Shown piece after piece: positions 2,109 to 31,826 of a DNA stretch of 49,095 nt. The stretch is from Giesbergeria sp. (GTDB lineage: Bacteria > Pseudomonadota > Gammaproteobacteria > Burkholderiales > Burkholderiaceae_C): NCBI RefSeq assembly GCF_028686475.1, contig NZ_JAQUCA010000023.1, forward strand, positions 1-49,095, given 5' to 3'. The translations under genes were made by a program, and so were the position numbers. A model generated the notes under the pieces. That model had not been told where the DNA came from. It saw only the letters and a program-made list of their open reading frames with translations, and made no database searches. The stretch's first letter is position 1. Every line of letters begins with the position of its first letter.

Positions 2109-3527
2109 CTATTCAGCACCGTCTGCCAAGGCTTGCAGCAGCAGGCTGTGGATGCCGCCAAAAGCGCCATTGCTCATGCACAGAATGTAATCACCCGGCT
2201 GTGCTGCTTGGGTGATTTGCGCCACCAGTGTGGCAATATCGGGCGCGGTGTGTGCTTGTGCCCCTAAAGGGGCCAGCGCGGCAGCGGCATCCCAGTCTAG
2301 CCCGGCCGTGTGGCAAAACACTTGATTAGCGTTGGCAAGCGCCCAAGGCAATTGGGCCTTCATGGTGCCCAGTTTCATGGTGTTGCTGCGTGGCTCAAAG
2401 GCCACCAAAATGCGTGCCTGTGGGCCGACGCGCTGGCGCAGGCCGTCTAGCGTGGTTCGCATGGCGGTAGGGTGGTGGGCAAAATCATCGTAAACGGTGA
2501 TGCCGCGCACCACGCCGCGCTGCTCCATGCGTCGGCGTACATTCTGAAAACTGCCCAAGGCTGCTGCCGCAGTCGCTGGAGTCACGCCCACATGCGCTGC
2601 TGCTGCAATGGCGGCCAAGGCATTGAGTTGGTTGTGTACCCCATCTAAGGCCCACTCGACCCGTGCCACCTGCTGGCCGCGCTGTAATACATCAAAGGCA
2701 TGGGGTGGGCCTTCGGCCGTGAAATCACTCACCGCTGCGCCAAAACTGCTGGTGCTGCTCCAGCAGCCGGTATGCAGCACCCGGGCCAAGCTTTCTTCCA
2801 ACCCATTGAATACCACTTGCCCAGAGGGTGGCACGGTACGCACCAGATGATGAAATTGGCGCTCAATGGCGGCCAAATCATCAAAAATGTCGGCATGGTC
2901 GAACTCTAGGTTGTTCAAAATGGCCGTGCGTGGCCGATAGTGAACAAACTTGCTGCGCTTGTCAAAAAAAGCGGTATCGTATTCATCCGCCTCTATCACA
3001 AACAAGGGTGCGCTGCCCAGGGGGCCAGGGCCGGGTTCGGGCCGGGTAGCTGCACCCAAACGGGCCGAAACGCCAAAATTGAGCGGCACCCCACCCACCA
3101 AAAACCCCGGTTGCAGACCGGCACATTCCAGCACCCATGCCAGCATGGAGGTGGTGGTGGTTTTGCCGTGCGTGCCCGCCACGGCCAGCACATGGCGGCC
3201 TTGCAAGACGTTTTCGGCCAACCACTGTGGTCCACTGGTGTAGGGCAGTCCGGCATCCAAAATGGCTTCCATCAGTGGGAACTTAGGGCTGCCATCGGCC
3301 AGCCGGGCGCGGCTGACCACATTGCCCACCACAAAGATGTCGGGTTTTAAGGCCAATTGCTCGCTGCCAAAGCCTTCCATCAACTCAATGCCCAAGGCGC
3401 GCAATTGCTCGCTCATGGGGGGATAAACGCCAGCATCGCAGCCGGTAACGCGGTGTCCGGCCTCGCGGGCCAATGCGGCTACGCCGCCCATAAAAGTGCC
3501 GCAAATGCCTAGGATGTGTATGTGCAT
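2109..3527 (-). CDS. mpl: UDP-N-acetylmuramate:L-Ala-gamma-D-Glu-meso-DAP ligase
   Basis: Mpl joins the recycled tripeptide L-Ala-gamma-D-Glu-meso-DAP to UDP-MurNAc in the cytoplasm, returning murein turnover products to peptidoglycan synthesis. The 472-residue protein begins MHIHILGICGTFMGG, the N-terminal Mur dinucleotide-like fold, and has the ATP loop AGTHGKTTT at about 117-125, IEADEYDTAFFDKR in the central domain and DDFAHHPTA in the C-terminal half, all typical of Mpl rather than MurC. An in-frame extension of 25 codons upstream exists but lacks family homology, so the start is set at 3527. The gene is divergent from the gene at 3580 with only about 50 bases between them. Confidence 0.93.
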   Translation of the reverse strand: MHIHILGICGTFMGGVAALAREAGHRVTGCDAGVYPPMSEQLRALGIELMEGFGSEQLALKPDIFVVGNVVSRARLADGSPKFPLMEAILDAGLPYTSGPQWLAENVLQGRHVLAVAGTHGKTTTTSMLAWVLECAGLQPGFLVGGVPLNFGVSARLGAATRPEPGPGPLGSAPLFVIEADEYDTAFFDKRSKFVHYRPRTAILNNLEFDHADIFDDLAAIERQFHHLVRTVPPSGQVVFNGLEESLARVLHTGCWSSTSSFGAAVSDFTAEGPPHAFDVLQRGQQVARVEWALDGVHNQLNALAAIAAAAHVGVTPATAAAALGSFQNVRRRMEQRGVVRGITVYDDFAHHPTAMRTTLDGLRQRVGPQARILVAFEPRSNTMKLGTMKAQLPWALANANQVFCHTAGLDWDAAAALAPLGAQAHTAPDIATLVAQITQAAQPGDYILCMSNGAFGGIHSLLLQALADGAE

Positions 3528-3579
3528 GGGCGCAGATTCTACGGTTGCAGGCCACAATGCCGCTTGGAAGCCATACACC

Positions 3580-4197
3580 ATGCAAAACACCCACCTTGCC
3601 ACTGAAATTGCCCAAGCTGCCGCCCGTCTGGTGGTGGATGAGGGGCTGGACTACGGTCCAGCAAAGCGCCGCGCTGTACGTGATTTGGGCCTGCCAGCAC
3701 GCACCGCCCTGCCCGATAACGACCTGCTAGAAGCTGCGGTGGCCGAGCATATCGCCCTGTTTTGCGCCGATACCCAACCACAAGAGTTGCGCGCCTTGCG
3801 CGAATTGGCCCTGCTGTGGATGGAGCGCTTGGCCGAGTTTCGCCCGCACTTGGCCGGGGCGGTGTGGCACGGCACAGCCACCCGCTTGTCGGATATTTAC
3901 CTGTCTTTGTTTTGCGACGATTCCAAATCGGCTGAAATTTTGCTGATTAACCGGGGCGTGGATTACGATGCCCAGATGGTCAACGGCTTGCATGGCGAGC
4001 CGGTAGAGGCCCTGACCATCGGCCACCCGCTGCCCGAGTTGGAAATCGTGGTGGGGGTGCATCTGCTAATTTACGATTTAGATGATTTACGCGGTGCCTT
4101 GCGCCCTGACAGCCAAGGGCGCACACCACGCGGCCACACCGAGGCGCTGCGCCAGTTGCTGGCCAGCAGTGGTACAGCTACCAGCACAGCGCCATGA
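3580..4197 (+). CDS. Conserved hypothetical protein, possibly nucleotidyltransferase-like
   Basis: This encodes a 205-residue soluble protein beginning MQNTHLATEIAQAAARLVV. Similar proteins sit beside mpl in many Burkholderiales and are often labelled UDP-N-acetylmuramate–alanine ligase. That label is not supported here, because the ATP loop and other Mur ligase motifs are absent. The segment GTATRLSDIYLSLFCDDSKS followed by a hydrophobic strand hints at a nucleotidyltransferase-like core, but this is a weak inference. An upstream in-frame ATG would overlap mpl, so the internal start at 3580 is preferred. The stop overlaps the tlpA start by four bases (ATGA), suggesting translational coupling. 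Confidence 0.75.
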   Translation: MQNTHLATEIAQAAARLVVDEGLDYGPAKRRAVRDLGLPARTALPDNDLLEAAVAEHIALFCADTQPQELRALRELALLWMERLAEFRPHLAGAVWHGTATRLSDIYLSLFCDDSKSAEILLINRGVDYDAQMVNGLHGEPVEALTIGHPLPELEIVVGVHLLIYDLDDLRGALRPDSQGRTPRGHTEALRQLLASSGTATSTAP

Positions 4198-4811
4198 ACC
4201 TGCCCACCACGGCCACCACGGCCACCACGGCCACCACGGCCACCACGGCCACCACGGCCAACGTCCCCGCTCCCAGCCCGTCGCGCCGCCTGCTGTTGGC
4301 TGGTGCTACTGCCAGCGTAGCCATCGCCGCTGGCGCTGGCTGGAGCTGGTGGCAAAGCCAGCGCCCCGCCACCGTGCCCGGCACGCCCGATGGCGTACCA
4401 GATTTTTGGGATAAAACTTTTGCCAGTTCTGCTGATGGTCAAACCGTGGCACTGCGCCAGTTTCAGCACCAACCGCTGCTGCTGAACTTTTGGGCTACTT
4501 GGTGTCCGCCTTGTGTGGCCGAAATGCCGCTATTGAATGCTTTTTTTCAGCAACAACGCGCCAAAGGCTGGCAAGTGCTGGGTATCGCCATCGACAAACC
4601 AGCGCCAGTGCGCCAATTCTTAGCCCGCCAGCCGGTGGATTTTCCGGTAGCACTGGCCAGCACAGAAGGTAGCAACTTGGCGCGCACGCTGGGCAATTTG
4701 GGCGGCGGCTTGCCCTTTACGCTGCTGCTCGATGCCCAAGGCCAAGTGCGACAACGTAAAATCGGCCAAGTGACGGCGCAGTTGCTACAAAGCTGGAGCA
4801 GCCTGCGCTAA
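4194..4811 (+). CDS. tlpA: TlpA-like membrane-anchored thiol:disulfide oxidoreductase
   Basis: The protein is a periplasmic thioredoxin-fold reductase held by an N-terminal signal anchor (about residues 31-54, RRLLLAGATASVAIAAG and onward). The redox centre WCPPC lies at about 103-107, after NFWAT, and a cis-Pro loop (GGGLPFTLLLD) follows. TlpA/ResE-type proteins reduce apo-cytochrome c or copper-chaperone cysteines; the exact partner is unknown here. The start codon overlaps the previous stop. Immediately after the start, residues 5-22 are six copies of Thr-Thr-Ala encoded by a 9-bp minisatellite, a low-complexity cytoplasmic tail unusual for this family. Length (205 residues) is otherwise normal. 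Confidence 0.85.
   Translation: MNLPTTATTATTATTATTATTANVPAPSPSRRLLLAGATASVAIAAGAGWSWWQSQRPATVPGTPDGVPDFWDKTFASSADGQTVALRQFQHQPLLLNFWATWCPPCVAEMPLLNAFFQQQRAKGWQVLGIAIDKPAPVRQFLARQPVDFPVALASTEGSNLARTLGNLGGGLPFTLLLDAQGQVRQRKIGQVTAQLLQSWSSLR
4206..4259 (+). repeat. Six perfect copies of a 9-bp tandem repeat within tlpA
   Basis: ACCACGGCC is repeated six times without mismatch from the fifth codon of tlpA, encoding (Thr-Thr-Ala)6. Because the unit is three codons, copy-number change keeps the frame. Confidence 0.95.
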
Positions 4812-4935
4812 CACCTGACACTGGGGCACCTTAGAAGATGGCCTCTATTTACCTCAGATATACCAAAAAGACCGCAGTAGCGTGAAATTAGGGTAAATTC
4901 GCGCCCTGTTCAGTTTTTAGCTCTTGGAGCCTTGC

Positions 4936-5382
4936 ATGGATTTGCGTAAACTCAAAACCCTGATTGACCTCGTTTCCGAGTCAAATGTGTCGGAACTGGA
5001 AATCACCGAGGCCGAAGGCAAAGTCCGCATCGTCAAAGGTGGCGGTGCGGTGATGCAGCAGTTTGTCGCCGCGCCCATGCAGGCGGCCACTGCTGCCCCG
5101 GTGTCGCCTGCTGCCGTGGCCGAATTGCCCGCCCCCACCGAGCCAACCGGCCACATCGTTAAATCACCGATGGTGGGCACGTTTTACCGCTCCTCCAGCC
5201 CCGGTGCCAAGCCCTTTGTCGAGTTGGGCAGCCAAGTCAAAGAGGGCGATACCGTCTGCATCATCGAGGCCATGAAAATTCTCAATGAGATTGAGGCCGA
5301 TAAATCTGGCACCGTGACGCGCATTTTGGGTGAAAACGGCCAGGCGGTAGAGTACGGCCAGCCCCTGTTCGTCATTGAATAA
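4936..5382 (+). CDS. accB: Biotin carboxyl carrier protein of acetyl-CoA carboxylase
   Basis: AccB carries the carboxylated biotin between biotin carboxylase (AccC) and the carboxyltransferase in malonyl-CoA synthesis. The 148-residue protein begins [13 protein letters not shown], has a Pro/Ala-rich linker (about 45-72) and a biotinyl domain with the thumb motif [18 protein letters not shown]. The biotin attachment site reads EAMKIL, with the modified Lys at about 114, instead of the more usual EAMKMM; the second Met is replaced by Ile. An alternative start four codons upstream is possible, but the chosen ATG follows TTGGAG at good spacing. accC follows after 48 bases, the usual accBC operon. 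Confidence 0.95.
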
Positions 5383-12103: not shown

Positions 12104-13375
12104 ATGAGCGAAGCCCGCAACCTGCGCAAAACAACCTATCGGCTGTACCCAACGCCGAAGCAGGCCGTTGCGCTCGATGCCCTGCTGCGCTCACACCAGC
12201 AGCTTTACAACGCGGCCTTGGAGGAACGCATCAGCGCTTGGAGCAAGGCGGGCAAATCAATTTCTTATGCCGACCAGTGCAAGGGCCTGACGCTGCTGCG
12301 CCACGACCTGCCCGAGTGGGCTGATGCAGCTAACTGTTCTAGCCAGCAGATGACGCTGCGCCGCTTGGACAAAGCATTTGCTGCGTTCTTCAGGCGCATC
12401 AAGGCGGGCCAAACACCGGGCTTTCCGCGCTTCAAGTCGCTGGGGCGTTTTCCCGGCTTCAGCTTCAAAAGTCATGGTGATGGTTGGCGCTTCACACCCG
12501 AAGAAGGCTGGAGGCATGGCAGCCTGCGCCTATCGGGCGTGGGGCAAATCCGTGCCCGTGGTCAAGCCCGTCAGGGCGGCGATATTCGTGCCAGTGACAT
12601 CCTGCACCGCGATGGCCGCTGGTATTTGTCACTGACCGTGGCCGTGGCCAGCCCAGAACGCACCCGGCAAGCCGATGGCGCACTGGCCTATGACTGGGGC
12701 GTGGAGAGATTCCTGTCGGGCGTAACGCACAGCGGCGAGCTGGAGAACATTGACAACCCGCGCTGGTGGCAACAGGAAAAGGAGCAGGCCATCCGGTTGC
12801 AGCAAGCTGTCTCAAGCAAGAGCAACAAGCGCTCTAACCGTAGAAAGAAGGCCGTGCGCCGCTTGGCCGCTGCTCGGGCCAAGGTAGCGCGCAAGCGGTT
12901 GGACTGGGCACACCAGCAAACGGCAGCGCTGGCAAACAAGTATGCCTTGGTAGCAACGGAAGAACTCACGCTCAAGAACATGACCCGCAGTGCTGCTGGC
13001 ACTGTGGAAGAACCGGGCAAGCAGGTAGCGCAAAAGGCGGGCCTGAACCGGGAAATACTGGACACCGCTCCGGGGCTGTTCACTTCACTATTTCGCTACA
13101 AAGTGCTGGAAACTGGTGGCGAATGGGTGGATGCTCCAACCCGCAAGCTTAAACCCAGCCAGCGCTGCCCCCAGTGCTGGCATGTGGCCAAAAAGCAGCT
13201 CTCACAGCGAATGCACTGCTGCGAACAATGCGGGCACCAAGAGAACAGAGATACGGCTTCAGCGCGTGTAGTGTTGCGCTGGGCTTTGGAATCCATATCC
13301 GGTCAGGAACTGGCCGAGACGGGAGTTTATGGCTCCCGTGAAACTCCATCCTTTGCAACGCATAGGGTGGAGTAG
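12104..13375 (+). CDS. tnpB: TnpB RNA-guided endonuclease (IS200/IS605, IS1341-type, no TnpA)
   Basis: The protein has 423 residues, a usual TnpB length. It has the N-terminal OrfB helix-turn-helix region (KTTYRLYPTPKQ), a RuvC nuclease with likely catalytic D197 (AYDWGVERF), E286 or E287 (ATEELTLKNM) and D383 (ENRDTASA), and a zinc finger CPQC (355-358) with CEQC (373-376). All catalytic positions appear intact. Known TnpB proteins cut DNA using an omega RNA from their own 3' end and help keep the element in the genome. No TnpA is present next to it, so it is either mobilised in trans or stranded. It sits between rnpB and the unknown gene at 13393. Confidence 0.92.
   Translation: MSEARNLRKTTYRLYPTPKQAVALDALLRSHQQLYNAALEERISAWSKAGKSISYADQCKGLTLLRHDLPEWADAANCSSQQMTLRRLDKAFAAFFRRIKAGQTPGFPRFKSLGRFPGFSFKSHGDGWRFTPEEGWRHGSLRLSGVGQIRARGQARQGGDIRASDILHRDGRWYLSLTVAVASPERTRQADGALAYDWGVERFLSGVTHSGELENIDNPRWWQQEKEQAIRLQQAVSSKSNKRSNRRKKAVRRLAAARAKVARKRLDWAHQQTAALANKYALVATEELTLKNMTRSAAGTVEEPGKQVAQKAGLNREILDTAPGLFTSLFRYKVLETGGEWVDAPTRKLKPSQRCPQCWHVAKKQLSQRMHCCEQCGHQENRDTASARVVLRWALESISGQELAETGVYGSRETPSFATHRVE
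13319..13372 (+). ncRNA. Candidate omega RNA scaffold hairpins at the tnpB 3' end
   Basis: Two consecutive hairpins overlap the last codons of tnpB: ACGGGAG/CTCCCGT (13319-13339) and CTCCATCC/GGGTGGAG (13344-13372, one wobble pair). In characterised TnpB systems the guide RNA scaffold lies exactly here and the guide is read from DNA just beyond the element's right end, here probably near 13375-13395. The boundary was not determined. Confidence 0.45.
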
Positions 13376-16142: not shown

Positions 16143-17114
16143 TTAGGCGGGCTGCTCTAGCCCGTCTTCAATCTGAAAGCGCCGCAACAGCAACCGTGAA
16201 GCTGGTGGCATGTCGCCGTTGGCCAGTTGCAGGCACTGGTCTAGGTGGCGCTCGGATGGAGCCAGCAAGCGGCGGTAGATTTCTTTGCACAGCAGGCGGG
16301 CTTGGCTGCCCGGCCAGTGGGCGGGTAGCAGCACGTCCGGCAGCTCGGGGTCACGCAATAAAAAACGCCGAAAATCGTGGATGAGCAGGATGCGCGCCAA
16401 ACAGGCCAACTCCTCATTGACATGGTCGCTCGGGTCTTGGCGTAGGGCATCCAAAATGGGTTGGTAGCGCGCTACAAAGCCATCGTAAGCGCTGGCCAGT
16501 CCATCCAGATTCCAAGCCCGTTGCACCAAGCTGGCATCGTCGGCGCTGGGGCTAAGTTTGGGGTTCAGGGCGACCAGTGGCAGCAAGTGTGGCAGGACAT
16601 CGGCCATGCCATCGGCGGCCAAAGCGTCCAAGGCGACATCCAACTCGGCACTGGGGTGGACAAAGCAGCCCGCGCCGGTATCGCCAAAACCTTGCCAATA
16701 CAGCGCTTGGCGCAGGCGTTCGCGCTGGCGTGGTTCCAATTCACCCACCACCATGATGAGGCGCCAACGCCTATCCCATAAGGGCGGTTCGGCGGCGTAA
16801 ATTTGGCGCGAGGCTTCTTCAAACCGGCGCTGGCCAGAGGGAGTGAGCCTGTAATCGGTGCGGCGGCCCACGGCTTCGGTTTGCAGCCATTCATCTTTTA
16901 CCAGCCGAAACACCGTGGTGCGTACCAAGCGCTCGTTGATGTCCAGCGGTTGCAACAGCTTAATCAGGCTGCCCAGCCAAACCCGGCCACCACGCGGCAG
17001 GATGGCATCACCAAAAATCGAGGTGATGAGGGAGCTGGCTTGGACGCGGCTTTTCTGGCGAAAGTTCTCTAAAAGGGCCTCAATGGCTGCTTGTGATGCG
17101 GTGTGTTCTTGCAT
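16143..17114 (-). CDS. paaX: PaaX-family transcriptional repressor of phenylacetate genes
   Basis: PaaX is a GntR-like winged-helix repressor released by phenylacetyl-CoA. The 323-residue protein has the family's N-terminal winged helix (SLITSIFGDAILPRGGRVW, ERLVRTTVFRLVKDEWL), the middle domain (DRRWRLIMVVGELEPRQRERLR) and the C-terminal domain with LARILLIHDFRRFLLRDPELPDVLLP. MQEHTASQ at 17114 is chosen as start, because the 43 codons upstream do not resemble the family. It is divergent from the liv/paa operon. The 10-mer AAGTGATACA occurs in its upstream region and again before paaN, a candidate operator. Confidence 0.92.
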   Translation of the reverse strand: MQEHTASQAAIEALLENFRQKSRVQASSLITSIFGDAILPRGGRVWLGSLIKLLQPLDINERLVRTTVFRLVKDEWLQTEAVGRRTDYRLTPSGQRRFEEASRQIYAAEPPLWDRRWRLIMVVGELEPRQRERLRQALYWQGFGDTGAGCFVHPSAELDVALDALAADGMADVLPHLLPLVALNPKLSPSADDASLVQRAWNLDGLASAYDGFVARYQPILDALRQDPSDHVNEELACLARILLIHDFRRFLLRDPELPDVLLPAHWPGSQARLLCKEIYRRLLAPSERHLDQCLQLANGDMPPASRLLLRRFQIEDGLEQPA

Positions 17115-17537
17115 AGGTGCCTGATGGTAGCGCTGCGCCAGCGGTGCTGGGGGCGTGGCATGGAGTCTTTCGTGCAAAGTGATACATACAGAAGTGTTTT
17201 GTCTCGGTCTGTGTAAGCCTCTAGGCGCTAAATTGTTTACCATTTTTTAAAAAATTTGGCTTGTCTTCTGGGCAACAGAATAGCGCCGTATGGGGAAAAT
17301 TTGGCCAATTTCTGCGCTAAATCAAACCATTTTGGGGCTTCGGAGCAATTTTTGCGAACTTTTTTCTAGGGATTACCCTTGTTTTTGCCCTAAAACGAGA
17401 TACAAAAACCAGAAAAAATTGCAATTTGGGTATCATGACGGTCGCGCACAACGATGCTGCGCCAGACACTTTTTTCCGCCCCCTGCCGGGCAGCGCCAAT
17501 GCCTGCCTTTTCAGAATCCATTACGGAGACACCACCT
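17115..17537. promoter_or_regulatory. Divergent control region between paaX and the liv/paa operon
   Basis: This AT-rich 420-bp region contains no gene. It carries the putative operator at 17177-17196, an A/T palindrome (TTTTTTAAAAAA near 17245), and GGTATCAT near 17429-17436 that could be an extended -10 without a clear -35. Promoters for both directions are expected here. Confidence 0.5.
17177..17196 (+). promoter_or_regulatory. Candidate PaaX operator 1
   Basis: AAGTGATACA is followed four bases after its T by a second AAGTG (17192-17196). The same 10-mer begins the perfect dyad at 21569. It lies 63 bases before the paaX start codon, where a repressor could control both directions. Confidence 0.4.
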
Positions 17538-17594
17538 ATGCTGTTGCCGCTACACGGTCGCCACGCCTGCGCGATGCCTGGGAGAGATGACTGA
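17538..17594 (+). CDS. Possible small peptide translationally coupled to livH
   Basis: An 18-codon frame (MLLPLHGRHACAMPGRDD) starts 11 bases after ACGGAGAC, a fair Shine-Dalgarno, and ends with TGA overlapping the livH ATG by one base (TGATG). It might couple translation to livH or be a leader. No stalling codon bias comparable to the aroG leader is seen. Confidence 0.35.
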   Translation: MLLPLHGRHACAMPGRDD

Positions 17595-18469
17595 TGCTCG
17601 CCGAATTTTTACAATTTTTGTTCTCGGGTATCACCGTCGGAGCCACCTACGCCTTGGCGGCGTTGGGCTTTACGCTGATTTACAACGCCAGCAATGTGAT
17701 TAACTTTGCCCAAGGCGAGTTCATCATGCTGGGTGGCATGTTGGCGGTGTTGTTTGCCCAAGCGGGCCTGCCGATGCCGGTGGTGCTGTTGCTGGCGATT
17801 GCCATTCCGGCAGTGGTGGGCGTGGTGATGGAAAAGGTGGCGATTGAGCCTATCAAGGGTGCCGAGACGGTCTCGCTCATCATCGTCACGATTGGTGCTT
17901 CGTTGGTGATTCGCGGCCTGATTCAAGTCTGGTTGGGCAAGGGCACGCACAGCTTGCCCGCCTTCTCGGGCGATGAGCCACTGCAAATTTTGGGTGCTAC
18001 GCTGCTGCCACAAAGTCTGTGGGTGCTGGGTGTCACGGCGGTGGTGGTGGTGTGCCTGTGGTACTTCTTTAACCGCACCCTGACCGGCAAGGCCATGCTG
18101 GCCACTTCGTTCAACCGCACGGCTGCCGAGTTGGTCGGTATCAACACCAATTGGGTGCTGTTCATGAGCTTTGCGATGGCCGCTGGTTTGGGCGCGTTGG
18201 GCGGCATTCTCATCACCCCCATCACCATGACCTCCTATGACGTGGGCATCATGCTCGGCCTCAAGGGCTTTGTGGCCGTGGTGGTCGGTGGCTTGGGCAA
18301 TGGCTTGGGCGCGGTGGTCGGTGGCTTGTTGGTGGGCGTACTGGAGGCGATGGGCGCGGGCTATATCTCCTCGGCCTACAAAGATGCGATGCCGTTTGTG
18401 CTGATTTTGTTGGTGCTGTTCTTCATGCCGCGCGGTTTGTTCGGTGGCAAATCGACCGATCGGGTGTAA
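17594..18469 (+). CDS. livH: Branched-chain-amino-acid-type ABC transporter permease LivH
   Basis: This 291-residue inner-membrane permease has about eight hydrophobic segments and the LivH family motifs GATYALAALGFTLIYNASNVINFAQGEF at the N-terminus (described by its ends GATYAL and AQGEF) and GLKGFVAVVVGGLGNGLGAVVGG near the C-terminus. It forms the membrane channel with LivM. Its place at the head of the phenylacetate operon suggests import of phenylacetate or another aromatic acid rather than leucine, which is inference. The start follows GGAGAGATGACTG. Confidence 0.93.
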   Translation: MLAEFLQFLFSGITVGATYALAALGFTLIYNASNVINFAQGEFIMLGGMLAVLFAQAGLPMPVVLLLAIAIPAVVGVVMEKVAIEPIKGAETVSLIIVTIGASLVIRGLIQVWLGKGTHSLPAFSGDEPLQILGATLLPQSLWVLGVTAVVVVCLWYFFNRTLTGKAMLATSFNRTAAELVGINTNWVLFMSFAMAAGLGALGGILITPITMTSYDVGIMLGLKGFVAVVVGGLGNGLGAVVGGLLVGVLEAMGAGYISSAYKDAMPFVLILLVLFFMPRGLFGGKSTDRV

Positions 18470-18471
18470 GT

Positions 18472-19404
18472 ATGCAAAAAAGTTCTGCTATCGGTCTGGG
18501 CCTGTTGGTGGCCGTGTTGCTGGTGCTGCCGTGGGTGGTGCCCAACAGTTATTACATGGATTTGGTGATTCGCATTGGCATTAACGCCATCATCGTGATT
18601 GGCCTGAACCTGCTGATTGGCTTTGCTGGCCAAATCAGTATGGGCCATGCCGGATTTTTGGGCATTGGCGCTTACGCCTCGGCGGTGTTGCCTACGCATT
18701 TTGCTTGGCACCCCTTGCTGGCGATGGCTGCCGGTGCGGCCTTCACCGCCTTGATTGCTGGTTTGGTGGCCCGGCCCATTTTCAAGCTCAAGGGCAACTA
18801 TTTGGCGATGGCCACCTTGGGGTTGGGCATCATCATCAACATTGTGCTACGCAATGAAGCCCAATGGACGGGCGGCCCCGATGGCATGGCCGTGCCTGCG
18901 ATGTCGGTGTTTGGTTTTGAACTCAGCAGCGATAAACATTGGTACTGGGTGGTGGCGGCCATGTTGGCCTTCAGTGTTTGGGCTTCGCTCAATATGATTG
19001 ATTCACCGTTTGGCCGCGCGCTGCGTGCGCTGCATGGCTCTGAAGTGGCCTCGCAGGTGGTGGGCGTGAACATTGTGCGCTACAAAGTGACGATTTTTGT
19101 CATGTCGGCCGCCTTTGCCAGCATCATGGGCAGCATCACCGCGCATTACATGGCTTTTGTGACACCCAATTTTGCTGATTTTTTCCATTCGGTCGAGTTG
19201 GTGACGATGGTGGTGGTGGGCGGTATGGCCTCGGTGTTTGGCTCCATCATTGGGGCGGTGCTGCTCACGGCCTTGCCCCAAGCTTTGGCTACCTTTGAGG
19301 GCTGGGAAACCGTGGTTTTTGGCGCCGTGCTGATGCTGTGCATGATTTTCCTGCCCAAGGGCCTGGTGCCCACGCTGGCGGCTAAATTTGGCAAGGGAGA
19401 CTGA
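18472..19404 (+). CDS. livM: Branched-chain-amino-acid-type ABC transporter permease LivM
   Basis: This 310-residue inner-membrane permease has the LivM signatures NLLIGFAGQISMGHAGFLGIGAY (residues about 43-65, given by its ends NLLIG and GIGAY), LKGNYLAMATLGLGII and the EAA-like loop FGRALRALHGSEVASQVVGVN. It starts two bases after the livH stop and ends two bases before livG, so the four genes are one transcript. Confidence 0.93.
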   Translation: MQKSSAIGLGLLVAVLLVLPWVVPNSYYMDLVIRIGINAIIVIGLNLLIGFAGQISMGHAGFLGIGAYASAVLPTHFAWHPLLAMAAGAAFTALIAGLVARPIFKLKGNYLAMATLGLGIIINIVLRNEAQWTGGPDGMAVPAMSVFGFELSSDKHWYWVVAAMLAFSVWASLNMIDSPFGRALRALHGSEVASQVVGVNIVRYKVTIFVMSAAFASIMGSITAHYMAFVTPNFADFFHSVELVTMVVVGGMASVFGSIIGAVLLTALPQALATFEGWETVVFGAVLMLCMIFLPKGLVPTLAAKFGKGD

Positions 19405-19406
19405 AC

Positions 19407-20168
19407 ATGGCCCTGCTAGAAGTCAAAGACCTGTCTATCCACTTTGGTGGTGTCAAGGCGGTGCAAAACGTCTCGTTCAATATTGATGCGGGCATTGTGT
19501 ATGCGGTGATTGGCCCCAACGGTGCGGGCAAGACCACGCTGTTCAACCTGATTACCGGGGTTTATAAACCCACCACGGGTGAGATTCGTTTGGATGGCGA
19601 GCCTATCCACGGCAAATCGCCCAACGAGTTGGCCGAACGCGGTGTGGCGCGCACCTTCCAAAACCTGCAAATCTGCATGAACATGAGCGCCATCGAGAAC
19701 GTGATGGTGGGCGCACATTTGCGCCTAGACCGCAACTTGTTCAAAGCGGCACTGCGCTGGCCCAGCCTACGCAAGCGCGACCGCGAATTGCGCGAAGAGG
19801 CCGCCGAGCTGATGCGCTTTGTTGGCCTAGAAAGCTACATCAACGCCCGCGCCGACACCATGTCTTACGGCGTACTCAAGCGCTTAGAAATTGCCCGTGC
19901 GCTGGCCATGAAGCCACGCATGATTTTTTTGGATGAGCCAGCTGCTGGCCTGAACCCGAAAGAAACCATCGAAGTGGACCAGCTGGTGCGTAAGGTGGCC
20001 GACTCGGGCATCACTGTGGTGCTGGTAGAGCATGACATGAAGATGGTGATGAACCTGTCTGACCGCATTTTGGTGTTGGATTACGGCAAAAAATTGGCCG
20101 AAGGCACTGGCGCAGAGGTGCGTAAGAACCCCGATGTGATTGCTGCCTACCTCGGTGGCCACGGCTAA
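19407..20168 (+). CDS. livG: Branched-chain-amino-acid-type ABC transporter ATPase LivG
   Basis: This 253-residue ATPase has Walker A GPNGAGKTT (36-44), a Q-loop in RTFQNLQ (82-88), Walker B RMIFLDEP (171-178) and the H-loop in VLVEHDMKMVM. The ABC signature is unusual. Where LivG normally has S/AYGQQRRLEIAR, this protein has MSYGVLKRLEIARAL (about 152-166), with the two Gln replaced by Val-Leu. The start is two bases after livM. It would pair with the hemerythrin–LivF protein encoded next. Confidence 0.93.
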   Translation: MALLEVKDLSIHFGGVKAVQNVSFNIDAGIVYAVIGPNGAGKTTLFNLITGVYKPTTGEIRLDGEPIHGKSPNELAERGVARTFQNLQICMNMSAIENVMVGAHLRLDRNLFKAALRWPSLRKRDRELREEAAELMRFVGLESYINARADTMSYGVLKRLEIARALAMKPRMIFLDEPAAGLNPKETIEVDQLVRKVADSGITVVLVEHDMKMVMNLSDRILVLDYGKKLAEGTGAEVRKNPDVIAAYLGGHG

Positions 20169-20184: not shown

Positions 20185-21498
20185 ATGGAAACACTGCGTA
20201 TCATTACCGAAGAGCATCGGAGCTTCTGGCGCATGGCGATTGCGCTAGAGCAGGTGGCCGATGATTTGGATGCGGGCAAGCCGGTGGACCCGGCCTTCTT
20301 TCAGGCCGCGTTTGAATACATCGAAAAGTTTGCCGACCACGCGCACCACCGCAAAGAAGACGATTGCCTGTTCCCGCTGATGCGCCAGCGCTCCGCCGAT
20401 GCGGTGCCCTTGGTCGAGGCGCTGGAAGAAGACCACCGCCAAGCCATCGTCCACTTGGAAGCGATGCGCCAAGCCTTCGCCCAAGTGAAAGCTGGCCAGC
20501 CACCGGGCGCTTTGGTGCAATCCTTGCGCGACTATTGCAAGCGGCTGAAAAACCACATCCACACCGAAGAATCCAAGGCGCTGCCCTTGGCACGCAAAAT
20601 TCTGACGGCAGAAGATTGGCAGAAGATTGATGCCCGCTTCCAAGAAAACAACGACCCGCTGTTTGGCCCCGAGGCCCAAGCCGAGTTCCAAGAGCTGTAC
20701 CACCGCGTGGTCAGTTTGGCCCCTGAGTCGATAGGCTTGGGCGCGCACAGCGGCGGCGTATTAAAAACCCCCATGCCCGCCAGCGGCGGCGATGTGCTGC
20801 TCAAAGTCACAGGCTTAGAGAGCAGCTATGGCCGTATCAAGGCGCTCAAGGGGCTGAATTTAGAAATCCACCGGGGCGAAACCGTCGCGCTGGTGGGGGC
20901 CAACGGTGCGGGCAAAACCACTTTCCTGCGTACCTTGTCGGGCGTACAACCAATGGGCGCGGGGCAAATTTGGTTTGATGGCGAAGACATCTCCAAAGTG
21001 CGCGCTGACCAGCGGATGCGCCGGGGTATTTGCCAAAGCCCAGAAGGGCGCCAAGTGTTTGGCCCACTGGCGATTGAGGACAACCTGCTGCTGGGTGCTT
21101 ACACCCAGCCCAAGCAGCAAGTACCCGAAGACTTGGAAAAAGTCTATGCCATGTTTCCGATTTTGAAAGAAAAGCGCAAGCTGCCCGCTGGCACTTTGTC
21201 GGGCGGGCAGCAGCAAATGCTGGCGATTGGCCGCGCCCTGATGGGCCGCCCCAAGCTGCTGCTGCTGGATGAGCCGTCGATGGGTTTGGCCCCGCTGCTG
21301 GTGCAAGAAGTGTTCAACGTGGTCAAGGCGCTCAAGGCGCAGGGCATGACCATCATCTTGGCCGAACAAAACGCTTTTGCCGCACTGGCGCTGGCCGACC
21401 GGGGCTATGTGCTAGAGACGGGCGAAATCACCCTGACCGGCACCGGCCAAGACCTCATCCATAACGAGCAGGTGCGCGCTGCCTACCTGGGTATGTGA
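20185..21498 (+). CDS. livF: Hemerythrin–LivF fusion ABC transporter ATPase
   Basis: The single uninterrupted frame encodes 437 residues. Residues 1-145 form a hemerythrin/HHE domain with candidate diiron ligands H11, H52-H55 with E58 (DHAHHRKEDD), H84 (EEDHRQ), and H124/H126 with E128 (NHIHTEES). A linker (about 150-200) leads to a complete LivF ATPase with Walker A GANGAGKTT (238-246), signature LSGGQQQ (338-344), Walker B LLLLDEP (358-364) and the switch His replaced as in LivF by AEQNA. LivF alone is about 235 residues. The ATG at 20185 follows AGCAGGA. There is no internal Shine-Dalgarno before the Met at 197, so a fusion is favoured over two genes. Hemerythrins bind O2 or NO, so transport might be tied to oxygen, which the PaaABCE epoxidase needs (inference). 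Confidence 0.9.
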   Translation: METLRIITEEHRSFWRMAIALEQVADDLDAGKPVDPAFFQAAFEYIEKFADHAHHRKEDDCLFPLMRQRSADAVPLVEALEEDHRQAIVHLEAMRQAFAQVKAGQPPGALVQSLRDYCKRLKNHIHTEESKALPLARKILTAEDWQKIDARFQENNDPLFGPEAQAEFQELYHRVVSLAPESIGLGAHSGGVLKTPMPASGGDVLLKVTGLESSYGRIKALKGLNLEIHRGETVALVGANGAGKTTFLRTLSGVQPMGAGQIWFDGEDISKVRADQRMRRGICQSPEGRQVFGPLAIEDNLLLGAYTQPKQQVPEDLEKVYAMFPILKEKRKLPAGTLSGGQQQMLAIGRALMGRPKLLLLDEPSMGLAPLLVQEVFNVVKALKAQGMTIILAEQNAFAALALADRGYVLETGEITLTGTGQDLIHNEQVRAAYLGM

Positions 21499-21684: not shown

Positions 21685-23352
21685 ATGTCCCATCCTTTGT
21701 TTGAACAACACCGCGCCACCCTCGATGGTGCTTTGCAAGCCATTGCCACCCGTGGCTACTGGTCGCCCTACACTGAGATGCCCAGCCCCAAAGCCTATGG
21801 CGAGACGGCTGCTGAAGAGGGCAAGCGTGCTTACGAAGCCCATTTGGGCCAAAATTTTGAACTCAACCAACCCGGCCAAGATGGCTGGACGGGCAACGAG
21901 GTTTCGCCTTACGCCGGTGCCTTGAACGTGCGCTACCCGCTGTGCGACCACGAAGCCCTGATTGATGCCGGTTTGGCCGCCATGAAAGGCTGGCAAGCCG
22001 TGGGCGCCGCAGGCCGCACCAGCATTTGCTTGGAAATTCTGGCGCGTCTGAACCGCCAAAGCTTTGAAATCGGCCACGCCGTGATGATGACCACCGGCCA
22101 AGGCTGGATGATGGCCTTCCAAGCCGGTGCCCCCCATGCCCAAGACCGTGGCTTAGAGGCGGTGGCCTACGCTTGGCGCGAACAAAGTTTTGTCCCGGCC
22201 GAAGCCACTTGGGAAAAGCCCCAAGGCAAAAATCCCGCCTTGGTGATGAAGAAGCATTTTGAAGTGGTAGGCCGTGGCGTTGGTTTGGTGGTCGGTTGCG
22301 GCACCTTCCCCACTTGGAACACCTATCCGGGCGTATTTGCCACGCTGGCCACCGGCAATGCCGTCATCATCAAGCCGCACAGCAATTCCATTTTGCCCGC
22401 TGCCATTACCGTGCGTACCATCCGTGCCGTGCTGGCGGAAAACGGCATCGACCCCAACTTGGTCACCTTGTGCGTGACGGACAAGCGCAGCACCACCCAA
22501 GCCTTGGCCACACACCCCAGCGTTAAATCGGTGGACTTTACCGGCAGCAATGTGTTTGGTCAGTGGCTGATTGACAACTGCAAGCAAGCCCAAGTCTATG
22601 CCGAGCTGGCCGGTGTGAACAACATCGTCATTGACTCGACCAACGCTTACAAAGCCATGTTGGGCAACTTGGCGTTCACGCTGTCGCTGTATTCCGGTCA
22701 AATGTGTACCACCTCGCAGGCTATTTTTGTGCCCGCTGGCGGTATCGACACCGACGAAGGCCACAAAACTTACGACGAAGTGTGCGCCGATTTGGGTAAG
22801 GCCATTACCCGCTTCCTGTCCAAGCCCGAAGTCGCCTTTGCGGTGCTGGGCGCGATGCAATCTGATGCCACCACCGAGCGCGTGGCCTATGCCAACAGTG
22901 GCGAATTGGGCACCGTAGTGCTGGCTTCGCAAAACCTGAGCAACCCCGACTTCCCCGCCGCCCAAGTGCGTACCCCCGTGCTGCTGGCTTGCGATGCGTC
23001 GGACGAAGCCGCCTACATGGAAGAGCGCTTTGGCCCCATCAGCTTTGTCGTCAAGGTGGCCGATACCGCCGCCGGTATCGCCCTGTCGGAGCGCGTGGTG
23101 CGCGAGCATGGCGCTTTGACGGTGGGTCTGTATTCCACGCGCCAAGAAGTGATTGACGCGATGACCGAAGCCACTTGGCGCGGCAAGGTGGCGCTGTCTA
23201 TCAACCTGACCAGCGGCGTGTTCGTCAACCAGTCCAGCGCCTTCTCGGATTACCACGGCACCGGCGGCAACCCAGCCGCCAACGCCTCGTATGCGGATTC
23301 GGCCTTTGTCGCCAACCGCTTCCGCGTGGTGCAACGCCGTTACCACGTTTAA
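21685..23352 (+). CDS. paaN: Phenylacetate degradation aldehyde dehydrogenase PaaN
   Basis: PaaN is the aldehyde dehydrogenase-type protein that oxidises the reactive ring-opened semialdehyde of the phenylacetyl-CoA pathway. The 555-residue protein matches the single-domain PaaN type, with the catalytic Cys at about 341 (SGQMCTTSQ), the general base region YAELAGVNN and cofactor region FTGSNVFGQW. It lacks the C-terminal MaoC-like hydratase domain of PaaZ, so oxepin-CoA ring hydrolysis must come from another protein. It starts with ATG at 21685 behind GGAAAAAGC and begins a second block of paa genes. Confidence 0.9.
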   Translation: MSHPLFEQHRATLDGALQAIATRGYWSPYTEMPSPKAYGETAAEEGKRAYEAHLGQNFELNQPGQDGWTGNEVSPYAGALNVRYPLCDHEALIDAGLAAMKGWQAVGAAGRTSICLEILARLNRQSFEIGHAVMMTTGQGWMMAFQAGAPHAQDRGLEAVAYAWREQSFVPAEATWEKPQGKNPALVMKKHFEVVGRGVGLVVGCGTFPTWNTYPGVFATLATGNAVIIKPHSNSILPAAITVRTIRAVLAENGIDPNLVTLCVTDKRSTTQALATHPSVKSVDFTGSNVFGQWLIDNCKQAQVYAELAGVNNIVIDSTNAYKAMLGNLAFTLSLYSGQMCTTSQAIFVPAGGIDTDEGHKTYDEVCADLGKAITRFLSKPEVAFAVLGAMQSDATTERVAYANSGELGTVVLASQNLSNPDFPAAQVRTPVLLACDASDEAAYMEERFGPISFVVKVADTAAGIALSERVVREHGALTVGLYSTRQEVIDAMTEATWRGKVALSINLTSGVFVNQSSAFSDYHGTGGNPAANASYADSAFVANRFRVVQRRYHV

Positions 23353-28798: not shown

Positions 28799-29947
28799 AT
28801 GAAATTTCAACTCAAGCAAATCGCCATCGGCGCTACGCTGGCTCTGGGTGCTTTGATGGCACAGGCGGCTGACCCGATCAAAATCGGTGCCGTGCTGTCC
28901 GTTACCGGCCCCGCGGCCTTCTTGGGTGACCCTGAGCTGAAAACCCTGCAAATGTACGTCGAAGACCTGAACAAAAAGGGCGGCGTGTTGGGGCGTCAGT
29001 TGGAACTGGTGCATTACGACGATGGCAGCGATGCCAACAAGGCCAACGGCTTCACCAAGCGCCTGATTGACAACGACAAGGTCGATGTCGTGATTGGCGG
29101 CACCACCACCGGTGCCACCATGTCGATGGTGCCGCTGGTCATGAAGGCCGAAGTGCCCTTTATCTCCTTGGCTGGTGCCGTGGTGATTACGGAGCCGGTC
29201 AAGAAATGGGTGTTCAAGACCCCCCACACCGACCGCATGGCTGCTGAAAAAGTGTTTGAAGACATGAAAAAGCGCAACCTGACCAAGGTAGCGCTGCTGT
29301 CGGAAACTTCCGGTTTTGGCCAGTCGGGCAAAAAAGAAACCGAAGCTGTGGCCGCTAAATACGGCATTACTTTGGTGGCCAACGAAACCTACGGCCCCAA
29401 AGACACCGACATGAGTCCCCAGCTGACCAAAATCAAGAACACAGCCGGTGTGCAAGCTGTGTTTGTGTTTGGTTTGGGCCAAGGGCCAGCTATCGTGACC
29501 AAGAACTACAAGCAGTTGGGTGTGAACCTGCCGCTGTACCAATCGCACGGTGTGGCCTCGGACGAGTTCCTGAAGCTGGCTGGCCCAGCAGCTGAAGGTG
29601 TGCGCCTGCCCTCGCCAGCCCAGTTGATTCCGGAGCAACTGCCCGCCAGCGACCCCCAAAAGCCCGTGGTAGCGGCTTACGACTTGGCCTACAAAACGCG
29701 CTACAAGTCTGACGTATCCACCTTTGGCGGTTACGCCTACGACGCTTTGATGCTGACGGTAGATGCCATGAAGCGTGCCAATGGCACCGACAAGGCCAAG
29801 GTGCGCGATGCCCTCGAAGCCACCAAAGGCTTTGTGGCCACCAGCGGCACCTTCAATATGTCGGCCACCGACCACATGGGCCTGAACCTGACCGCCTTCC
29901 GCCTGTTGGAAGTCAAGGATGGCAAATGGAGCCTGTTGCAGCAATAA
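28799..29947 (+). CDS. livK: Liv-type ABC transporter substrate-binding protein
   Basis: This is a 382-residue periplasmic binding protein with a signal peptide (MKFQLKQIAIGATLALGA up to AQA, cleavage before ADPIKIG) and the type I periplasmic fold of LivJ/LivK: VLSVTGPAAFLGDPE, DVVIGGTTTGATMS, ETSGFGQSGKKETEA and YDALMLTVDAMKRA. It is separated from livHMGF by seven paa genes but uses the same strand and probably the same transcript. The ligand is likely phenylacetate or a related aromatic acid (inference). AGGAGACAAAGTA precedes the start. Confidence 0.92.
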   Translation: MKFQLKQIAIGATLALGALMAQAADPIKIGAVLSVTGPAAFLGDPELKTLQMYVEDLNKKGGVLGRQLELVHYDDGSDANKANGFTKRLIDNDKVDVVIGGTTTGATMSMVPLVMKAEVPFISLAGAVVITEPVKKWVFKTPHTDRMAAEKVFEDMKKRNLTKVALLSETSGFGQSGKKETEAVAAKYGITLVANETYGPKDTDMSPQLTKIKNTAGVQAVFVFGLGQGPAIVTKNYKQLGVNLPLYQSHGVASDEFLKLAGPAAEGVRLPSPAQLIPEQLPASDPQKPVVAAYDLAYKTRYKSDVSTFGGYAYDALMLTVDAMKRANGTDKAKVRDALEATKGFVATSGTFNMSATDHMGLNLTAFRLLEVKDGKWSLLQQ

Positions 29948-30766: not shown

Positions 30767-30812
30767 TTTTTTCCCCACCGTATTGGCCTCAACCTTCAAG
30801 GAGTTAATCGCC

Positions 30813-31826
30813 ATGTACACGCAATCGTTCAGTGTGCCGGATGAGCCCGGCCAAAAACACATCAAAGCTGTGGCACCTGCCGAGCCAGCAGAATTGATGG
30901 CCAAATTTGATGCGCGCATCGATTCCGATGGCCGCATCGAGCCGCAAGACTGGATGCCCGATGCCTACCGCAAAACGCTGGTACGCCAAATCAGCCAGCA
31001 CGCCCACAGCGAAATCGTGGGGATGCTGCCCGAAGGCAACTGGATTAGCCGCGCCCCCAGCTTGAAGCGCAAAGCCATTTTGATTGCCAAGGTGCAAGAC
31101 GAAGGCGGTCACGGCCAGTACCTGTACAGCGCTGCCGAAACCTTGGGCGTGAGCCGCGCCGATTTGCTGGATGCCCTGCATTCGGGCAAGGCCAAATACA
31201 GCTCCATCTTCAACTACCCCACGCTCAATTGGGCCGACGTAGGCACGATTGGCTGGCTGGTCGATGGCGCTGCCATCATGAACCAAGTGCCGCTGTGCCG
31301 CTGCTCTTATGGCCCTTACTCGCGCGCCATGATTCGCGTGTGCAAGGAAGAATCGTTCCACCAACGCCAAGGCTACGAAGCCCTGCTGGTGATGATGAAG
31401 GGCACCGACGAGCAAAAAGCGATGGTGCAAGATGCCGTCAACCGTTACTGGTGGAAGTGCTTGGCCATGTTTGGCCCGCCCGATGCCGACAGCCCGCACA
31501 GCGCGCAAGCCATGCGTTGGGGTATCAAGCGTGTCTCTAACGATGACCTGCGCCAAAAATTTATCGATGCCACTGTGCCTCAGGCCAAGGTATTGGGTGT
31601 CACCCTGCCCGACCCCGACCTGAAGTGGAATGAAGAACGTGGTCACTACGACTACGGCCAAATCGATTGGGACGAATTCTGGAACACGGTCAACGGCAAC
31701 GGCCCGTGCAACAAAGAGCGTCTCTCGACCCGCGTGAAAGCGCACAACGACGGCCAATGGGTGCGCGATGCCGCCCTGGCCCACGCCCGTAAACAGCAAC
31801 AACGCGCAATGAAGGAAGCAGCATGA
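30813..31826 (+). CDS. paaA: Phenylacetyl-CoA 1,2-epoxidase subunit A (catalytic)
   Basis: PaaA is the diiron oxygenase subunit that forms the ring 1,2-epoxide of phenylacetyl-CoA with O2. The 337-residue protein has the ferritin-like diiron motifs [20 protein letters not shown] (about 96-115) and [16 protein letters not shown] (about 181-196). AAGGAG precedes the ATG at 30813 (spacing eight bases). It overlaps paaB by four bases. Confidence 0.96.

Follow-up and report, generated by a model that had tools for sequence, protein, structure and literature searches.

Introduction

Several ABC importer ATPases, including MalK, MetN, ModC, and OpuA, carry a fused regulatory domain at the C-terminus. 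Such domains sense partner proteins, substrate, or ionic strength/nucleotides, and we know of no hemerythrin-type domain among them. The YtfE/RIC family has an extra N-terminal RIC domain in addition to its HHE domain.

The seven-ligand set H-HxxxE-HxxxH-HxxxxD is that of the oxygen carriers and most characterised sensors, and the signal-passing mechanism of DcrH is described as still unclear (PMC9388753, excerpts). In the excerpts of PMC6449761, hemerythrin genes of COG3945 are separate genes of benzoate clusters, some with an ABC transporter, and their role is given as unclear. Phthalate clusters contain a hemerythrin-like gene, OphH (PMC5031561, excerpts). PMC4919030 reports 56 domain architectures, in figures, so an earlier listing of the architecture described here is possible. 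The term 'ABC' is absent from the main text of PMC4919030, PMC2556348, and PMC9388753.

Here we analyse a stretch of 49,095 nucleotides from Giesbergeria sp. (the window). In a branched-chain-type (HAAT) ABC importer, one of the two ATPases has permanently acquired a hemerythrin-type domain (Hr) at its N-terminus. The Hr-LivF importer travels with predicted aromatic-acid catabolism genes, and nearly all sampled lineages retain its predicted metal ligands. The first-pass annotation knew of no such fusion, and in agreement we find no description of it in the open literature searched.

Results

The fused gene and its operon

The operon and the parts of the fused protein are as follows.

16143..17243, minus strand, paaX repressor, divergent upstream (TIGR02277, 282.5 bits, cut-off 264.55)
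17594..18469, plus strand, livH permease (PF02653)
18472..19404, plus strand, livM permease (PF02653)
19407..20168, plus strand, livG ATPase, 16 bp ahead of the fusion (family match)
20185..21498, plus strand, fused Hr-LivF gene, 437 aa (single ATG frame without internal stop)
20194..20592, plus strand, hemerythrin/HHE domain, residues 4-136 (Pfam Hemerythrin PF01814, 67.1 bits, cut-off 25.3, E 2.7e-18)
20608..20718, plus strand, a further pair of helices, residues 142-152 and 162-178, and a conserved DPxFG turn (AlphaFold2 model, alignment)
20743..20793, plus strand, linker of about 17 residues (alignment of 114 rows)
20794..21495, plus strand, LivF-type ATPase, residues 204-437 (PF00005; Walker A, LSGGQ, and Walker B invariant in alignment A2)
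21685..23352, plus strand, paaN (TIGR02288, 888.8 bits, cut-off 578.75)
28799..29947, plus strand, livK-like periplasmic binding protein, 7.3 kb downstream of the fused gene (PF13458)
30783..31826, plus strand, paaA, subunit of the O2-using phenylacetyl-CoA epoxidase (TIGR02156, 542.8 bits, cut-off 280)

The single frame joining a hemerythrin domain to a complete LivF, as proposed in the first-pass annotation, is borne out. From N- to C-terminus, the protein consists of the HHE domain, a short linker, and a full LivF-type ATPase, whose ABC_tran domain occupies residues 221-365 (Pfam PF00005, 106.3 bits, cut-off 25). Initiation at an in-frame TTG upstream of the ATG would give a protein of 452 aa. 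By eye, standalone relatives show a tail similar to the two extra helices that follow the bundle. In 102 of the 114 aligned rows, the linker spans 16-18 residues.

The ATPase has the features of a LivF-type ABC importer ATPase: the sequence motifs, livHMG directly upstream, and a livK-like gene in the cluster. Its top NCBIfam match is the LivF equivalog NF008626, at 269.4 bits and under the cut-off of 441. The best Foldseek match is 1ji0 (52% identity). Pfam and Foldseek both identify an ABC-type ATPase, which places the protein outside the P1B-5 class.

The livH, livM, livG, and fused genes are consecutive, with gaps of 2, 2, and 16 bp. Downstream of the fused gene lie paaN, more paa genes, the livK-like gene, and paaA. 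This agrees with the operon context described earlier. The genome (3.39 Mb) is nearest by sequence to Giesbergeria anulus and Simplicispira (Comamonadaceae), and the Hr domain is 96% identical to that of G. anulus.

The same genome has a second hemerythrin-type match, a standalone gene (G000:C51:57051-57593; L002, L207) that is 32% identical and has no Liv homologue within 1.5 kb. Elsewhere in the window, positions 12104-13375 (plus strand) hold a 423-aa ORF that resembles, by eye only, a TnpB/OrfB-type transposon protein.

Distribution of the fusion

A scan of a named genome collection matched 297 stretches, 250 of which encode relatives, and the best 80 of the 250 were kept. In all 80, Hr is fused in frame to LivF and livG is the gene directly before the fusion. 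Six loci are truncated by a contig end, one (L097) lacks about 45 residues inside LivF but has a normal end, and one (L148) has an altered tail at its end. The genera represented include Giesbergeria, Simplicispira, Malikia, Azonexus, Dechloromonas, Zoogloea, Rhodoferax, Polaromonas, Castellaniella, and Glaciimonas. Eighteen further fused homologues from family and genus genomes are all open across the junction; 17 are complete, and one (L056) is cut by a contig end. The fusion is confirmed in at least 13 of 399 family genomes and at least 10 of 399 order genomes; both counts include the window and are minimum values, as fusion was checked only for matches with retrieved loci.

Outside the order, a LivF query against 369 genomes of the class finds fusions in G1007, G890, and G1013, and unfused LivF proteins of 62-63% identity in G867, G820, and G893. 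Three genomes among 349 of the phylum (G1230, G1292, and G1325) are also fused. Judging from the taxonomy used, these six fusion carriers are probably Gammaproteobacteria that do not belong to the former Betaproteobacteria. A search of 72,556 plasmid records gives a single match covering at least 80% of the query, on plasmid AZO_p1 of Azospirillum lipoferum 4B (45.6% identity). This fusion (L224, 9001-10323) is the most distant with all six ligands. The Hr part has no match in the phage collection.

The first-pass annotation had allowed for a stop or start between the domains. The junction is open in all 80 named loci, and the stretch aligned to residues 181-208 contains no Met in 95 of 114 rows, indicating that an internal ATG start for LivF is not conserved. 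The fusion is not peculiar to one genome and recurs in many bacteria. We therefore reject an oddity of one genome, given the 80 of 80 fused loci among the best 80 of 250 named relatives and the carriers beyond the order, and likewise an assembly or sequencing artefact, given the open junction in 18 of 18 family and genus loci and in 80 of 80 named loci.

Trees of the two parts

From the retrieved rows, we hand-picked 41 fused and 42 standalone Hr domains (83 in all) for a midpoint-rooted tree, whose bootstrap is not fully settled. The fused and standalone domains are split by a branch with 100/99 support. In the LivF tree, the fused and some unfused proteins are not cleanly separated and long branches meet; therefore, we claim a single origin only for the sampled Hr domains and not for the fusion event.

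At five loci (L036, L038, L048, L166, and L168), a standalone Hr gene directly follows a distant livF. These genes take three places among the standalone rows of the Hr tree (L036/L038, L048, and L166/L168), suggesting that hemerythrin-type genes came to lie beside such transporters more than once.

The predicted diiron site

The AlphaFold2 model of residues 1-192 is a confident bundle (pLDDT 89.0, pTM 0.84) with helices at residues 2-29, 36-69, 71-102, and 108-139, plus two further ones. This predicted four-helix bundle, together with a Pfam score above the gathering cut-off, places the domain in the PF01814 superfamily. Foldseek against the PDB gives no match at E <= 0.001; the best matches, 2p0n and 3cax, have a probability of 1.00 but E of about 0.02. 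The sequence profile of the domain (A3) matches FBXL5 (E 0.00024), 2p0n (E 0.0003), and YtfE (E 0.0016). In the full-length model, the pTM is 0.51 and the linker pLDDT is below 50, so the coupling surface cannot be read from it.

Six residues are predicted to hold the metal.

20215..20217, plus strand, predicted iron ligand H11 (114 of 114 rows)
20344..20346, plus strand, predicted iron ligand H54 (114 of 114 rows)
20356..20358, plus strand, predicted bridging ligand E58 (111 of 114 rows, T in the other 3)
20434..20436, plus strand, predicted iron ligand H84 (111 of 114 rows, Y in the other 3)
20554..20556, plus strand, predicted iron ligand H124 (114 of 114 rows)
20566..20568, plus strand, predicted bridging ligand E128 (114 of 114 rows)

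The pattern H-HxxxE-H-HxxxE resembles the six-residue YtfE type. An intact His/Glu ligand set had been claimed for the domain. The claim stands for the six-ligand HHE type (H11, H54, E58, H84, H124, and E128) and falls for the seven-ligand carrier set: the canonical bacteriohemerythrin pattern H-HxxxE-HxxxH-HxxxxD is absent, as the residue four positions after H84 is I88, and H124 is followed by E128 and E129 rather than by D. The spacing between successive ligands is 43, 4, 26, 40, and 4. In YtfE, it is 45, 4, 27, 44, and 4. In sequence alignments, the HxxxE motif and the next His align with those of YtfE.

Retention of the ligands was counted in the alignment of 114 rows, of which 101 are distinct because some genomes are represented by two loci; the Azospirillum fusion was examined separately. 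All six residues are retained in 111 rows. The exception is family f234 (G1230, G1292, and G1325; L199-L201), in which T replaces E58 and Y replaces H84 in the fused domain. In 12 pairs, dN/dS is 0.03-0.28 for the Hr domain and 0.009-0.084 for LivF, and the Hr domain is under purifying selection.

Gene neighbourhoods

Within the genus, strict coupling of the fusion to PaaABCE holds. The fusion is present in 7 of 26 genomes, and PaaA in exactly those 7 (7/7 carriers, 0/19 others). Only four other LivF proteins of the genus are found at E <= 1e-75, all unfused and of 53-54% identity.

More widely, the coupling fails. We surveyed 59 chosen fusion genomes, comprising 32 of the 80 named loci and 27 further genomes; at most 56 are distinct, as three pairs (G528/G1482, G772/G1481, and G190/G1504) have identical AurF-like gene coordinates. 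PaaA is above the cut-off in 37 of the 59 and below it in 22. A full-length AurF-like protein is encoded in 31 of the 59, in 18 of the 22 genomes without PaaA versus 13 of the 37 with it; these counts cover fusion-bearing genomes only. Four of the 59 (G890, G1013, G549, and G1498) are without both PaaA over the cut-off and an AurF-like protein. Two of them, G890 and G1013, do encode weak PaaA-like proteins (E about 1e-21); in G890, one such protein lies near livK and is assigned to PF05138.

The AurF-like protein is encoded in the retained flank of 28 of the 80 named loci (at 300 aa or longer in 26), 24 times between paaN and livH, and is usually accompanied by a 2Fe-2S/FAD/NAD reductase. It is a candidate alternative oxygenase where PaaA is missing. 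At one locus (L081), positions 3152-4177 and 4285-5331 (plus strand) encode an AurF-like diiron protein with a BenC-like reductase, near paaN. This AurF-like protein scores 20 bits with PF11583, under the cut-off of 29.6, and has two DExxH motifs by eye; it has no NCBIfam family over the cut-off and no PDB sequence relative at E <= 1.

At thresholds that we set, 59 of the 80 named loci have one or more paa homologues within the retained flank. Flavin monooxygenase-type proteins adjoin the fusion in L145 and L209, and the Azospirillum cluster (L224) encodes a Rieske ring-hydroxylating dioxygenase, a muconate cycloisomerase, and a LysR regulator. Candidate O2-using aromatic enzymes thus recur around the other fusions, a comparison that the first-pass annotation had called for. 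The common thread of the neighbourhoods is predicted oxygen-dependent aromatic catabolism, with phenylacetate the commonest case seen. In the family, PaaA is over the cut-off in 125 of 200 genomes and the fusion is detected in at least 13 of 399; PaaA is common and the fusion rare, indicating that the fusion is one of several solutions.

Discussion

The recurrence of the fusion beside O2-using aromatic breakdown genes suggests that uptake may follow the oxygen or redox state. The Hr domain would house a cytoplasmic diiron site next to the ATPase core. The state of the site (diferrous, diferric, or O2 bound) may change the shape of the bundle, and the change may pass through the two C-terminal helices and the short linker to alter LivF-LivG closure or the ATPase rate. 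Import of phenylacetate or related acids would thereby track oxygen or redox state. Judging from the operon, phenylacetate is probably the substrate, and gating of its uptake by O2 or redox state is plausible. We consider this reading, in which the predicted diiron site signals the oxygen or redox status to the ATPase, the most likely one, at about even odds. The broader reading, a clade of aromatic-acid ABC importers with a built-in diiron oxygen/redox switch that would match uptake to the adjoining O2-dependent pathway, is tentative and falls a little short of even.

The first-pass annotation proposed uptake only with O2 present, a direction that makes metabolic sense. Three observations speak against simple O2 gating: the ligands are YtfE-like, f234 has PaaA and retains the domain but has lost E58 and H84, and 22 of the 59 chosen fusion genomes are without PaaA over the cut-off. 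The four chosen genomes with neither PaaA over the cut-off nor the AurF-like protein, and the many paa genomes of the family in which no fusion is detected, also weigh against the gating model.

The f234 exception counts against a purely iron-based account and favours the alternative that we rank first, which is nonetheless unlikely: the domain would serve chiefly as structure, helping LivF to dimerise or dock, and its iron would be secondary or vestigial. The f234 domain remains strongly constrained despite the loss of two ligands (dN/dS 0.031-0.055, three pairs), indicating that at least one lineage can use the domain with an incomplete ligand set. Against a mainly structural role stand the six ligands unchanged in the other 111 of 114 rows, which include domains only 42-66% identical to that of the window.

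Ranked second, and improbable, is a local store or scavenger that would supply the oxygenase with buffered O2 or peroxide close to the membrane, or protect the pathway, with no regulation of the pump. Such a role is proposed for standalone HHE proteins of benzoate clusters in the excerpts of PMC6449761, and candidate O2-using enzymes adjoin the fusion. However, one site per transporter subunit would be a poor store, and storage would not need a linker to the ATPase of near-constant length.

Third, and more doubtful again, the Hr domain may sense or detoxify NO and slow uptake under nitrosative stress. The ligand spacing is near that of YtfE, and profile A3 matches YtfE (E 0.0016). Dechloromonas, Azonexus, and Castellaniella are genera of denitrifiers, and several fusion carriers belong to them. 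However, a cytochrome-d1-type protein (PF02239, E <= 0.001, a model that may also catch nirS relatives) is common in the genus with or without the fusion (22 of 26 genomes), and three of the four genomes without any such match (G002, G007, and G020) carry the fusion, which speaks against a simple NO link. The 26 genus genomes thus show no positive association of the fusion with cytochrome d1, and we reject a link to denitrification. Furthermore, a Pfam scan finds no second, YtfE-type N-terminal domain in Hr-LivF, which is therefore not of the RIC architecture.

An assembly or frameshift artefact, or translation as two proteins, can practically be dismissed: standalone HHE genes do adjoin livF at the five loci noted above, but the junction is open in all 18 family and genus loci and all 80 named loci, and the linker region is free of Met in 95 of 114 rows.

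If the oxygen/redox reading is true, Hr-LivF would, as far as our searches show, be the first case of an ABC importer under the control of a hemerythrin-type domain. With a metal-based sensor of gas or redox state on the importer ATPase, oxygen would control carbon uptake directly and post-translationally. Hr-LivF would provide a partly soluble, ATPase-assayable model for signal passing from hemerythrin-type domains, with f234, which is without the full ligand set, as a ready-made natural comparison. The transporter is, moreover, often accompanied by the AurF-like oxygenase candidate.

Hr-LivF shares features with several known systems. An ordinary HAAT-family LivF is likewise a complete ATPase, to which Hr-LivF adds about 200 N-terminal residues. 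In MalK, MetN, ModC, and OpuA the regulatory domain is C-terminal, whereas that of Hr-LivF is N-terminal and hemerythrin-type. YtfE/RIC has a six-ligand HHE bundle of similar spacing and a weak profile match (E 0.0016), but YtfE has no ATPase. The P1B-5 ATPase with an Hr domain also places a hemerythrin-like domain on a transport ATPase; it is, however, a P-type metal pump with a C-terminal domain and the pattern H-HxxxE-HxE-HxxxxD, whereas Hr-LivF is ABC-type, has its domain at the N-terminus, and lies beside aromatic genes. The direction of uptake only with O2 contrasts with the two characterised c-di-GMP enzymes that bear such domains, which are active in the reduced state. The COG3945 proteins (PMC6449761, excerpts) and OphH (PMC5031561, excerpts) are encoded by separate genes, whereas Hr-LivF is one polypeptide with its own Hr clade. 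DcrH, Bhr-DGC, and Bhr-HD-GYP likewise join a hemerythrin-type domain to an output domain in one chain, at the N-terminus in the two Bhr proteins as in Hr-LivF; these sensors have H-HxxxE-HxxxH-HxxxxD, whereas Hr-LivF has H-HxxxE-H-HxxxE and an ABC importer ATPase as output (PMC9388753, excerpts). As far as our searches show, the ABC importer is a new output beside the known outputs of hemerythrin domains, namely chemotaxis, c-di-GMP enzymes, and P-type ATPases.
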